Part shown: piece after piece, positions 1,747-4,322 of the stretch
Layout: every line of letters starts with the position of its first letter
Position numbering within the stretch: the first letter of the stretch is position 1
From: Bacteroidales bacterium
GTDB taxonomy: Bacteria > Bacteroidota > Bacteroidia > Bacteroidales > UBA932
NCBI GenBank assembly: GCA_017482565.1
Contig: JAFUMO010000032.1
Span: 1 to 39,688, forward strand
DNA length: 39,688 bases
Direction: 5' to 3'
The notes under the pieces: model-generated
What the model was told of the DNA's origin: nothing
Seen by the model: the letters and a program-made list of their open reading frames with translations, nothing else
Databases searched by the model: none
Position numbers and translations under genes: made by a program

Positions 1747-1777
1747 TTTGTTATTTTCATAATTGTTGCTACCTTTG
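1747..1777 (+). promoter_or_regulatory. Bacteroidales promoter for the Abi-linked small RNA
   Basis: TTTG at 1747-1750 is followed after exactly 19 nt by TACCTTTG at 1770-1777. This matches the Bacteroides consensus of a -33 TTTG and a -7 TAnnTTTG. Transcription should begin near 1784, immediately before the first arm of the small-RNA stem. Confidence 0.7.
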
Positions 1778-1783
1778 CATCAC

Positions 1784-1836
1784 TAGAACTCGCCGAGCCT
1801 CTTAACAATGCTTAAATAGGCGGGTCATTTTTTTTT
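1784..1836 (+). ncRNA. Predicted small structured RNA upstream of the Abi_2 gene
   Basis: ACTCGCC at 1788-1794 pairs with GGCGGGT at 1819-1825 (7 bp, one G-U) and a ten-base T-run with terminator character follows. The 24-nt loop contains TTAA at 1802-1805 and 1812-1815, which can form a weak inner stem, or the direct repeat CTTAA-CAATG-CTTAA. With the promoter at 1747-1777 this gives a transcript of about 50 nt ending 10 nt before the ATG of the HEPN gene. GC-rich stems of this type with a short loop are, as I recall, seen upstream of other Bacteroidetes Abi_2 genes, where an RNA antitoxin has been proposed. RNA sequencing would be decisive. An attenuator leader is the alternative. Confidence 0.55.
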
Positions 1837-1845
1837 ATTAATACT

Positions 1846-2739
1846 ATGGTCCGTTTTAACAAGACATATTATACATCTGCACAATTGGTGCAAGTCCTTA
1901 AGGAAAGAGGGCTGCAGATTTCTGATGATGCACGTGTTGAAAGGTATCTCAATAATATTGGTTACTATAGATTAAGTGCCTATATGCACCCTTTTCTTAA
2001 AGAGCCAAAGACTGACCATAAGTTTAAGGAAAATGTCTCTTTTGATAAGGTGCTCAGACTATATCGTTTTGACAAGAAGCTCAGAATGTTACTCTTCAAT
2101 GAGATTGAGAAGATTGAAATTGCATTTCGTCAGGCTGTGGCCAACATTACAGCTGAAATGAGTGGCAATATCTTTTGGATGACTGATGTTGCCTCTTATA
2201 GTAATGCTGCCAAGGCAGCAAAGTCTATCAGTCTTATCACTAATGAATACAATAAATCAAGAGAAGATTTTATTGAACACTTTAAGAATACATATTCAGA
2301 TCCTTTCCCTCCTGCATGGATAACAGCAGAAATCCTTCCTCTGGGAAATATGACTTTGCTTTATAGCAATCTTGCAGACCAGAAGGTCCGTAAAGCAATT
2401 GCAAGGGCATTTTATCTTCATGCACCTGTTCTTGATTCATGGATGACTGTGATAACCCTTACAAGGAATTCTTGTTGCCACCACGCTAGAATGTGGAACA
2501 AGACAAATCCAATCATTCCAAATGATATGAAGAAAATGTTGAGGCCCTGGATTGCCCATGCTACCAACAAAAGGAAAATTTACTATAATATATGTATCAT
2601 AAAGCATTTTTTGGATATAATTTCCCCAAACAATGATTTCAAGAATAAACTGCTTGGACTTTTGGCGCAGTTTCCTGAAATAGATTTGAGAGCAATGGGC
2701 TTTAATAATAATTGGGAAAACGAGCCTTTATGGAAGTAA
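1846..2739 (+). CDS. Abi_2-family (AbiD/AbiF-like) HEPN protein
   Basis: This 297-residue protein is full length for the Abi_2 (AbiD/AbiF) abortive-infection family. The N-terminal signature LNNIGYYRLSAYMHPF lies at about residues 35-50, and R207-N-S-C-C-H212 within TRNSCCHHARMWN fits the HEPN ribonuclease motif R-x4-H. The family is linked to phage defence and is thought to act by RNA cleavage. I infer that this protein is an RNase toxin; its target cannot be read from sequence. The ATG at 1846 is the first in frame and follows the T-run of the upstream small RNA, so expression probably depends on readthrough of that terminator. A strong hairpin terminator at 2743-2775 closes the unit, which makes it a self-contained two-part cassette inside the element. 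Confidence 0.85.
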   Translation: MVRFNKTYYTSAQLVQVLKERGLQISDDARVERYLNNIGYYRLSAYMHPFLKEPKTDHKFKENVSFDKVLRLYRFDKKLRMLLFNEIEKIEIAFRQAVANITAEMSGNIFWMTDVASYSNAAKAAKSISLITNEYNKSREDFIEHFKNTYSDPFPPAWITAEILPLGNMTLLYSNLADQKVRKAIARAFYLHAPVLDSWMTVITLTRNSCCHHARMWNKTNPIIPNDMKKMLRPWIAHATNKRKIYYNICIIKHFLDIISPNNDFKNKLLGLLAQFPEIDLRAMGFNNNWENEPLWK

Positions 2740-2742
2740 AGA

Positions 2743-2775
2743 AGAGTTCATCAGTTGTCTGGTGAACTCTTTTTA
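2743..2775 (+). terminator. Rho-independent terminator of the Abi_2 unit
   Basis: A 12-bp stem (2743-2754 with 2759-2770, one G-U pair) closes a TTGT loop and is followed by TTTTATTT. It lies three bases after the stop codon and separates the gene from the convergent integrase. Confidence 0.8.
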
Positions 2776-2799: not shown

Positions 2800-4185
2800 C
2801 TACATTTTCCAAGCATTATCTATAAGTTTCATTGCGTTGGATTTTGTTTTTTCTGCAATATCTATGTAGGGTTTCATTGCCTTGTAGTCTGAATGACCGG
2901 TCCATTTCATTACTACTTGTGGGGGAATTCCGTTTGAGAGGGCAAAGCAGATGAATGTTCTTCTGGCTGCATGGGTTCCTATAAGTTCATATTTGGGATA
3001 TATTTCATCTACACGCTGACCTGCACGGTAGCAGGTTTTTGAAATTGGGGTGTTGAATCCGCAGAGTTCTCCAAGGTCCTTCAGATATTTGTTCATTTTC
3101 TGGTTTGAAATAACGGGAAGGGCCAGACCTCTGGAAAATTCAGAGCCTTTGTGTTTTTCAAGTATGGCCTGGGCATTCTTGCTCAAATCTATAGGAAGAC
3201 GATCATTTGTCTTTTGTGTTGTTATGTAGAGTTTGTCTTCGGTTATATCTGTTCTCTTTAGCGCTGCCATATCTGAGTAACGGAGGGAGGTGAAAGCACA
3301 GAAACAGAAGAGATCTCTTGTTTTTGCAAGGGCTCCGGCTTCTTGTACAGTCTTTTCGTATTCAAGGCCGTTCATATCTGAGAGTTTTATCTTGGTCCCA
3401 TTGGTTGGAATCTCATAATGGTATAATTTGAGCAATTCTTCTTTTGTGAGAAAAATTACCGGTTTTTCAAGGACCTTGAATTTGGGCTTATATCTATTGA
3501 TTGTTTCCTCCTTACAATATCCCTTACGAATTGCCCAGTTTAGAAACCATTTTAGGTTTCAGTATTGTTTCTGAACGGTCTTTTCTTCCAGTTTCCTCAC
3601 TTTCCTAAGATGCATTATGAATCTGTTAATTCCGTTTTCATTAAAATCACTGAATTCTACGCAATATCCAAATGACTCCATGTGATTGGAAAATGTATGC
3701 CAGGCTTGTACAGTGGAATGGGCCCATTGATTAAGCAGGCTTTGCTCTTTAATGAATTCGTCCAAAAATTGGAAGATAGTTTTTATTGGAGCATCCTGTG
3801 CTACCTCCTGGGGTTTCAGGTCATCACCTAATGAAATGGCAATATTCAACTGCTCTTTTAACTCTTCTACTGTTGGCCTGCTTCTCAAGGATTGTTCGTA
3901 TTCTCCAAAGTGGATCTGAATCTTAAAAATTCTGCTGTTGATAATACGGGAGGTTATACCTTTTGAATTAGTGTATTTTGGCTTAACCTGGCCGGATTCC
4001 AACCAAGCTGAAGAATCTACACTATAGCCAAGTGTTGTGAGCAATCTGGTTTGACGGATAGAGATAGAGACTGTGATGGGAGCCTCATTTTTTTGTTGAC
4101 TTTTGGGTGCAGATAGAACTTGACTGACATACTTGTTTGCATTAAAAATACAAACAAATTTACAAACAGATTTTGAAAGATGCAA
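2800..4185 (-). pseudogene. Tyrosine recombinase (integrase) interrupted by an in-frame TGA
   Basis: One minus-strand frame of about 460 codons encodes an N-terminal arm/SAM-like part (3562-4185) and a C-terminal catalytic domain. The catalytic residues are visible: Arg in TSLRYSDM (near 3280), His/Arg in THAARRTF, His in TGHSDYKAM and the nucleophile Tyr in MKPYIDIAE. A single TGA at 3561-3559 splits the frame. The 42 codons between the stop and the next ATG still read as normal integrase linker (NLKWFLNWAIRKG and onward), so this looks like a recent nonsense mutation. Without suppression no complete enzyme is made. The true N-terminus is uncertain because the first 25 or so residues look non-conserved. 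It lies next to the tRNA fragment at 4265, where the integrase of an element normally sits. Confidence 0.85.
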
Positions 4186-4264: not shown

Positions 4265-4289
4265 GGGTTCGAGTCCGATATGCTCCACA
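4265..4289 (+). other. tRNA 3'-end fragment, probable attachment-site remnant
   Basis: The bases GGTTCGAGTCCGATATGCTC (4266-4285) followed by CAC resemble a T-arm, acceptor 3' strand and discriminator of a tRNA. TTCGAGT is a T-loop, CCGAT would be the 3' side of its stem and ATGCTCC the acceptor strand. The 5' half of the T-stem is wrong (AAGGG instead of ATCGG) and no tRNA body precedes it, so this is not a gene. It fits the duplicated 3' end left by integration into a tRNA gene. Two GTTGAATT direct repeats at 4190-4197 and 4205-4212 between it and the integrase could be recombinase arm sites. Confidence 0.6.
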
Positions 4290-4322
4290 AAAAGACTCCC
4301 GCAGCAATGCGGGAGTCTTTTT
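4289..4322. terminator. 15-bp bidirectional hairpin terminator
   Basis: AAAAAGACTCCCGCA (4289-4303) and TGCGGGAGTCTTTTT (4308-4322) are perfect complements around a GCAA loop. The A/T flanks allow termination in both directions. It directly follows the tRNA fragment and is probably the native terminator of the tRNA gene that served as integration site. It also ends the DUF3276 transcript from the right. Confidence 0.85.

Follow-up and report, generated by a model that had tools for sequence, protein, structure and literature searches.

The window, by which we mean the whole stretch of DNA analysed here (39,688 nucleotides of a Bacteroidales contig), very probably carries an AbiF RNA-antitoxin system, made up of a small RNA of the abiF family and, directly downstream of it, a gene for a HEPN toxin-like protein. 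For the window copy, the parts of the module, their homology, the conserved layout and the covariation of the RNA stem were obtained directly. RNAs of the same family also occur on viruses that carry no toxin gene, and we consider it moderately probable that phages use them as a counter-defence.

Layout of the module and its genomic setting

A preliminary description of this DNA had proposed that a promoter, a stem-loop RNA, a T-run, an Abi_2 gene and a strong terminator follow one another closely, and the sequence, the open reading frames and a terminator scan bear out each of these parts at the positions given in Table 1. The TTTG and TACCTTTG elements upstream of the RNA form what we take to be the Bacteroidota promoter pattern; a sigma-70 scan returned 3 sites versus 5.0 expected. 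The RNA matches Rfam family RF03085 and scores 50.1 bits where the gathering score is 37 (whole-window E 1.7e-6), and this match is the single one that an Rfam scan found in the window and in the genome. The transcript would begin near position 1783 and end near position 1836. Upstream of the module, a 277-aa frame at 482-1315 has no match in Pfam or PADLOC. The same genome holds a second, partial Abi_2 gene (L003 1501-1803; C17:12942-13244), and no abiF RNA was found in the 3.3 kb around it.

Table 1. Coordinates of the module and of the adjoining island features in the window.
Feature	Position	Strand	Details
Bacteroidota-type promoter	1747..1777	+	TTTG at 1747-1750, 19 nt, then TACCTTTG at 1770-1777
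abiF antitoxin RNA core	1788..1826	+	Rfam RF03085 at 1789-1825
abiF RNA helices	1788-1794/1819-1825; 1796-1798/1810-1812	+	outer stem; inner helix
T-run, attenuating terminator tail of the RNA	1828..1836	+	nine T; 9 nt before the toxin ATG
abi_2, AbiF HEPN toxin-like protein	1846..2739	+	297 aa; ATG at 1846; Abi_2 domain
Strong intrinsic terminator 3' of abi_2	2739..2774	+	16 pairs; folding z -7.36
Tyrosine recombinase (integrase) frame	2800..4185	-	one in-frame stop; reading frame and domain match
Island attachment-site remnant	4266..4293	+	28 bp; identity to tRNA-Ala(GGC) end in relatives

The proposed location of the module on a tRNA island also holds. The attachment-site remnant has the same sequence as the final 23 bases of tRNA-Ala(GGC) plus the 5 bases after them in relatives of the same genus, and a whole tRNA-Ala lies near the same flank in 3 of the 19 relatives read (L022-L024), in one of which (L024) the tRNA runs directly into the same flank as in the window. 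No second copy of the tRNA end was found in the assembly, which is 89% complete, and the other end of the island lies beyond the contig. As the integrase frame is interrupted, the island may be decaying or immobile.

The AbiF protein

The window protein matches the Pfam family Abi_2 (PF07751, E 2.4e-54) as well as the AbiD model of PADLOC (E 1.1e-68), and it carries the HEPN Rx4H motif as RNSCCH starting at residue 207 (R207 and H212), in keeping with the earlier assignment of the gene as an Abi_2 HEPN gene. A search of the PDB returned one strong match, chain 8vz6_A, which extends over the full length (E 1.9e-109) with 158 of 295 positions identical. This entry contains PbAbiF with its RNA (PMC12737573), and the protein is reported to come from a Prevotellaceae bacterium (PMC12373285). 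R207 and H212 of the window protein align with R210 and H215 of PbAbiF, whose R210A+H215A variant is reported to be inactive (PMC12373285). A Cas13-like effector was considered and rejected, the protein having 297 aa and one Abi_2 match, not two HEPN domains. The link of Abi_2 proteins to the ancestry of Cas13, which had been put forward earlier, agrees with published reports that place AbiF at the root of Cas13 (PMC12373285, PMC12737573).

Conservation of the RNA beside Abi_2 genes

A scan of bacterial sequences for the loop and inner helix of the RNA gave at least 120 sites. Among the matches listed, an Abi_2-like frame lies downstream at 79 of 120 sites, and at 64 of the 96 that have at least 1 kb of downstream sequence. 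Promoter and T-run were counted in the 73 of the 79 Abi_2-linked loci, again among the matches listed, that offered enough flanking sequence: a TAnnTTTG -7 box lies 18-20 nt 5' of the RNA in 62 of them (random positions, 2.2%), and in 71 the stem is followed by a run of at least 4 T. The window has both. Of the genome sites listed that offer 1 kb or more of downstream sequence, 32 are orphans, with no Abi_2 match; seven of these 32 show Abi_2 fragments (two of them very weak) and 25 show none. Four genomes were searched whole, and Abi_2 was not found in the three that contain orphan sites, namely B. fragilis Q1F2 (L172), Prevotella histicola (L239) and an Alistipes MAG (L164).

Covariation was assessed on 39 Abi_2-linked RNAs, consisting of 38 non-identical genome sequences among the matches listed and the window. 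The stem that the preliminary description had singled out for such a check is exactly the helix that covaries, contrary to the lack of stem conservation that had been named there as refuting the idea: this outer helix is paired in 87.5% of cells, and two-sided changes are seen at all 7 of its 7 pairs. For the whole structure, 35 double-change cells were counted versus 9.3 in shuffles, with 4 of the 12 counted pairs uninformative because they are fixed by the search pattern. An extra loop pair outside the Rfam structure, formed by columns 16 and 20 (1803 and 1807 in the window), is C-G or U-A in 38 of the 39 bacterial RNAs among the matches listed.

Within the 199 genomes of the window's family, RF03085 is present in 14 (strict filters) and Abi_2 in 51. 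Sixteen RNA loci of the family, the window included, were compared with the window protein by tblastn; nine have a downstream match, one of them distant, and seven have none, one of the seven offering only 304 nt. From the 51 genomes with Abi_2, 30 of the best-scoring loci were opened. The abiF RNA lies just upstream in all six loci whose protein is at least 45% identical to that of the window, itself included, and the 24 loci with at most 40.2% identity gave one weak abiF RNA match only (L314, E 0.12).

A second class of RNA next to other Abi_2 clades

Upstream of 16 of these 24 more distant loci we recognised by eye another kind of small RNA, likewise arranged as promoter, hairpin, T-run and ATG, and in 8 of the 30 opened loci no RNA was recognisable by eye. 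One RNA class accounts for 14 of the 16, with a third form in the remaining two (L304, L311). The second class is closed by CGCT/AGCG in five loci (L294, L295, L299, L300, L305) and by a short SCA/TGS helix in nine (L301, L303, L307, L310, L313, L314, L316, L319, L321), and its loop TCCCRTNAGAWC is exact in 11 of the 14. A scan with Rfam 15 of 15 of the 16 loci with other small RNAs gave no match, so searches with RF03085 only miss AbiF-like systems of this second class. PMC12804078 names two covariance models for AbiF from Zilberzwige-Tal et al., and this RNA diversity may therefore already be known.

AbiF RNAs on viruses without a toxin gene

The viral scan used the loop and inner helix (AGCCTCTYNACRATGCTYAAA) and left the outer stem free. 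It found at least 120 stretches in IMG/VR (L040-L159), and the reversed pattern found 1. An Abi_2-like frame follows at 1 of the 101 sites with at least 1 kb downstream among the matches listed. Grouping by flank similarity reduced the 120 listed sites to 96 flank-distinct representatives, and PF07751 is absent from 95 of the 96 whole virus records among the matches listed, often fragments, each of the 95 thus carrying the antitoxin RNA without a toxin gene. Isolated phages matter here because many of the virus records are fragments. Searches of isolated phages, run at a loose limit at which several matches are weak or lie inside genes, returned Synechococcus and Arthrobacter phages, Acinetobacter phage Acj61, Roseobacter phage CRP-143 and others; mycobacteriophages make up 68 of the 80 records in one loose search, some phages being listed twice. 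Eleven records of isolated phages were chosen for examination (L280-L290), and a PF07751 search found no Abi_2 in any of the 11, which likewise carry the RNA without the toxin gene. Nine of them reach the Rfam gathering score. A model, R1, built solely from the Abi_2-linked bacterial RNAs and the window, finds all 11, including the two that miss the Rfam score (Pomar16 and Mimi: E 0.00055, and 2.9e-6 for a partial match).

The structure of the RNA is kept on these viruses. Among the matches listed, 95 toxin-less RNAs, 84 of them distinct, made up the viral covariation set, in which the outer helix is paired in 80.4% of cells and the whole structure in 88.6% versus 71.7% when shuffled; sliding the partner cuts pairing to 34-49%. 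Double-change cells number 177 versus 61 in shuffles, a count inflated by relatedness because 22 of the 95 listed loci form one group sharing neighbour genes. One of the five measures, the count of pairs that change on both sides, is not above shuffles (8 versus 7.6, 322/500). Outer stems with six or more pairs occur in 73 of the 94 toxin-less viral representatives among the matches listed and are missing from the other 21, and they occur in 92 of the 119 usable viral sites listed (shuffled partners, 21%). Each of the 84 viral RNAs among the matches listed has C-G or U-A as the loop pair of columns 16 and 20, under a search pattern that also permitted C-A and U-G, and in S-CREM1 and S-SRM01 one inner-helix pair is exchanged on both sides. 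Judged by these comparisons, the toxin-less viral RNAs are not relics and are under selection for structure.

A same-strand tRNA lies within 150 nt of 30 of the 96 viral representatives listed (random positions in these loci, 2.5%), and the bacterial set has a tRNA within this distance in 1 of 120 among the matches listed. In 17 viral representatives among the matches listed, 8 of them outside the group of 22, the tRNA starts 4-12 nt after the RNA. The RNA lies 4-5 nt before a tRNA in S-CREM1, S-SZBM1, S-SRM01, Lolly9 and Aziz (L280, L281, L286, L287, L290), and no tRNA abuts it in Thibault, LittleE, Acj61 and CRP-143, the other four phages with an Rfam match. Viral copies have a T-run in 26 of 115 cases and a Bacteroidota promoter in 2 of 115, among the matches listed.

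At 38 of 39 positions the RNA of the mycobacteriophage LittleE is identical to RNAs that lie beside Abi_2 in M. brisbanense and Frigoribacterium, though the Abi_2 match of M. brisbanense is divided between two frames. Among 148 genomes of the genus of M. brisbanense, Abi_2 was found in 8, and at two further mycobacterial Abi_2 loci there is no abiF RNA within 1.5 kb. The virus contig L060, which has genes for an endolysin and a DNA polymerase exonuclease subunit and no Abi_2 in its record, contains an RNA region identical to that of the window at 49 of 56 positions, with one stem pair broken and a fold no better than that of shuffles. In the stretch 1860-3416 of L060, the RNA has a PHROG 'RNA-binding protein' gene (phrog_850) in its vicinity, with a tRNA 0.3 kb away. 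On a 95-kb virus contig, L074, an abiF RNA with a Bacteroidota promoter was seen at 1359-1750; a short frame 3' of it resembles by eye the C-terminus of Fic (phrog_11900), and a DnaB-like helicase lies on the opposite strand. Five records came from a search of plasmids.

The cores of the second class were found in the viral collection as well, in 7 (L323-L329) and 93 (L330-L422) stretches; reversing the patterns yielded 1 and 0. Of the 49 flank-distinct sites of the larger set, 31 have a stem of six or more pairs, where shuffled partners reach a mean of 6 and a maximum of 12. These 31 and the 7 gave 38 second-class virus records that were searched whole, and Abi_2 is present in 1 of the 38; the 3 kb downstream of the 93 sites contain no Abi_2-like frame, as far as the sequence extends. 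A tRNA is near in 9 of the 49 and abuts in none. Of two second-class queries against isolated phages, one returned a single weak match and the other five (E 3 to 10), with no convincing RNA among them, and the second class is therefore known here only from IMG/VR contigs and bacteria. The toxin-less pattern thus holds for two RNA classes, and the tRNA slot for one.

Comparison with known systems

The RF03085 match and the full-length homology to PbAbiF make the module an added member of the known AbiF systems; it is not new in kind, a Prevotellaceae representative having been characterised earlier. PbAbiF-AbiFr (PDB 8vz6) is alike in the homology of the full-length protein and in the HEPN motif, and is reported to have one small RNA per toxin monomer (PMC12373285, PMC12737573). 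Unlike it, the window copy belongs to a tRNA-Ala island whose integrase is interrupted. RCd22-AbiFCd of C. difficile prophages shares with the window the order of abiF RNA, terminator and Abi_2 toxin, but is described with two abiF motifs and in a phage lysis module together with the toxin, whereas the window has one motif, on an island; readthrough is reported for RCd22-AbiFCd and would be expected in the window (PMC12373285). Classical type III systems (ToxIN, CptIN, TenpIN) were considered and rejected, as there is no tandem-repeat antitoxin RNA array, and the single RF03085 match in window and genome led us to file the module under AbiF and not under the ToxIN family.

For the viral RNAs, the nearest precedent is S-CREM1, whose abiF RNA inside a tRNA array is described in PMC9964418 and in the review PMC12197685 and is confirmed by the annotation of the record. 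The available parts of these two sources count three phage genomes with abiF RNA in Rfam, assign no antitoxin or counter-defence role to the RNA and contain no survey of toxin-less copies. In the literature searched, a toxin-less phage abiF RNA is described for S-CREM1 only, with its role unconfirmed, and an earlier mention elsewhere is possible. The pseudo-ToxI repeats of PhiTE are reported to be a phage RNA that mimics an RNA antitoxin, by which the phage escapes the system (PMC3475682), although ToxIN is a different toxin and RNA family and the AbiF mimics are candidates. Racr RNA anti-CRISPRs offer another parallel in that viruses are reported to carry a solitary RNA part of an immune system; their targets are CRISPR-Cas systems (PMC10651486), unlike the target proposed here.

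Discussion

In the mechanism that we propose for the module, one promoter would give rise to an RNA of roughly 50 nt. Transcription would mostly end at the T-run, with the toxin mRNA as the readthrough product, and because most transcripts would stop there, the RNA would be in excess. Folded as the abiF stem-loop, it would bind an AbiF dimer and keep the HEPN ribonuclease inactive; a shortage of the RNA, maybe upon phage infection or loss of the island, would allow the toxin to cleave RNA, and growth would stop. Transcription and toxicity are presumed for the window copy, and its readthrough, binding and neutralisation are predicted from homologues. The homologous RNA of C. difficile is reported to end mostly before the toxin gene, the toxin mRNA arising via readthrough; AbiF of this species is toxic in C. 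difficile and in E. coli, and the RNA neutralises the toxin in trans through direct binding and also reduces expression in cis (PMC12373285). The structure of a Prevotellaceae AbiF-RNA complex has been solved according to two reports (PMC12373285, PMC12737573). The RNA-antitoxin logic suggested in the preliminary description is supported by the identity of the RNA as Rfam abiF and by the toxin binding reported for the C. difficile homologue. Several features speak against the AbiF reading: the window RNA is a single motif (two are found in C. difficile, repeats in classical type III) with an ordinary folding energy, in bacteria the RNA is not always accompanied by a toxin gene, and the integrase of the island is interrupted.

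That an orphan HEPN gene has come to lie beside an unrelated hairpin by chance has next to no probability. The folding energy of the RNA is unremarkable on its own (z -1.32, with 21 of 200 shuffles folding equally well), as such a hairpin would have it, but the Rfam match above the gathering score, the covariation of the stem and the presence of the same RNA in all six close homologues refute this explanation. It is also improbable that the stem-loop is a cis-acting leader only, attenuator or riboswitch-like, that sets abi_2 expression with no separate antitoxin. The RNA does belong to the 5' leader, where 20 nt that include the T-run separate the end of its stem from the ATG, and the C. difficile RNA is reported to act in cis as well; yet the latter also binds and neutralises its toxin in trans (PMC12373285), the PbAbiF structure has RNA bound (PMC12373285, PMC12737573), and loop and stem are present on phages whose records lack Abi_2 and thus offer no toxin gene to regulate in cis. 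A pure cis leader was rejected on account of these phage copies, and we keep to the AbiF system as our reading of the module.

For the solo phage RNAs we favour, with moderate confidence, a role as counter-defence in which they would silence host AbiF by antitoxin mimicry, like the pseudo-ToxI of PhiTE. Such copies would be spread over phages of cyanobacteria, actinobacteria and proteobacteria and over Bacteroidota-type virus contigs, and their two loop classes appear to match two groups of Abi_2 clades. Many copies of the abiF class seem to sit like an extra tRNA in arrays, from which tRNA processing would excise and release them; the released RNAs would bind and silence host AbiF at infection, and a module of the window's type would be the kind of defence against which they evolved. 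We regard as possible, if somewhat doubtful, a function unrelated to any antidote, be it in the processing or spacing of tRNA arrays or together with a phage protein not yet recognised. The direct abutment of phage RNAs to tRNAs would suit it, as would the sporadic occurrence of the presumed target in the M. brisbanense genus and the two Abi_2 loci there that lack a nearby abiF RNA; many hosts may lack AbiF. However, the loop is the same as in the Abi_2-linked RNAs and the stem is kept by covariation, 66 of the 96 viral loci among the matches listed have no same-strand tRNA within 150 nt, nor do Thibault, LittleE, Acj61 and CRP-143, and the second Abi_2-linked RNA class is equally toxin-less on viruses. 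To look for a phage protein partner, we clustered the ORFs lying up to 2 kb from the 95 toxin-less viral loci among the matches listed, and the 19 ORF families present in at least 4 of these 95 all fall within the one linked group of 22, which argues against such a protein.

The module adds one Bacteroidales member to the AbiF systems, the presumed ancestors of Cas13, and the phage RNAs matter more than the module itself. If the counter-defence reading is true, they would represent an RNA-based phage counter-defence against a widespread HEPN ribonuclease, and would explain why phage tRNA arrays contain some of their RNA genes.
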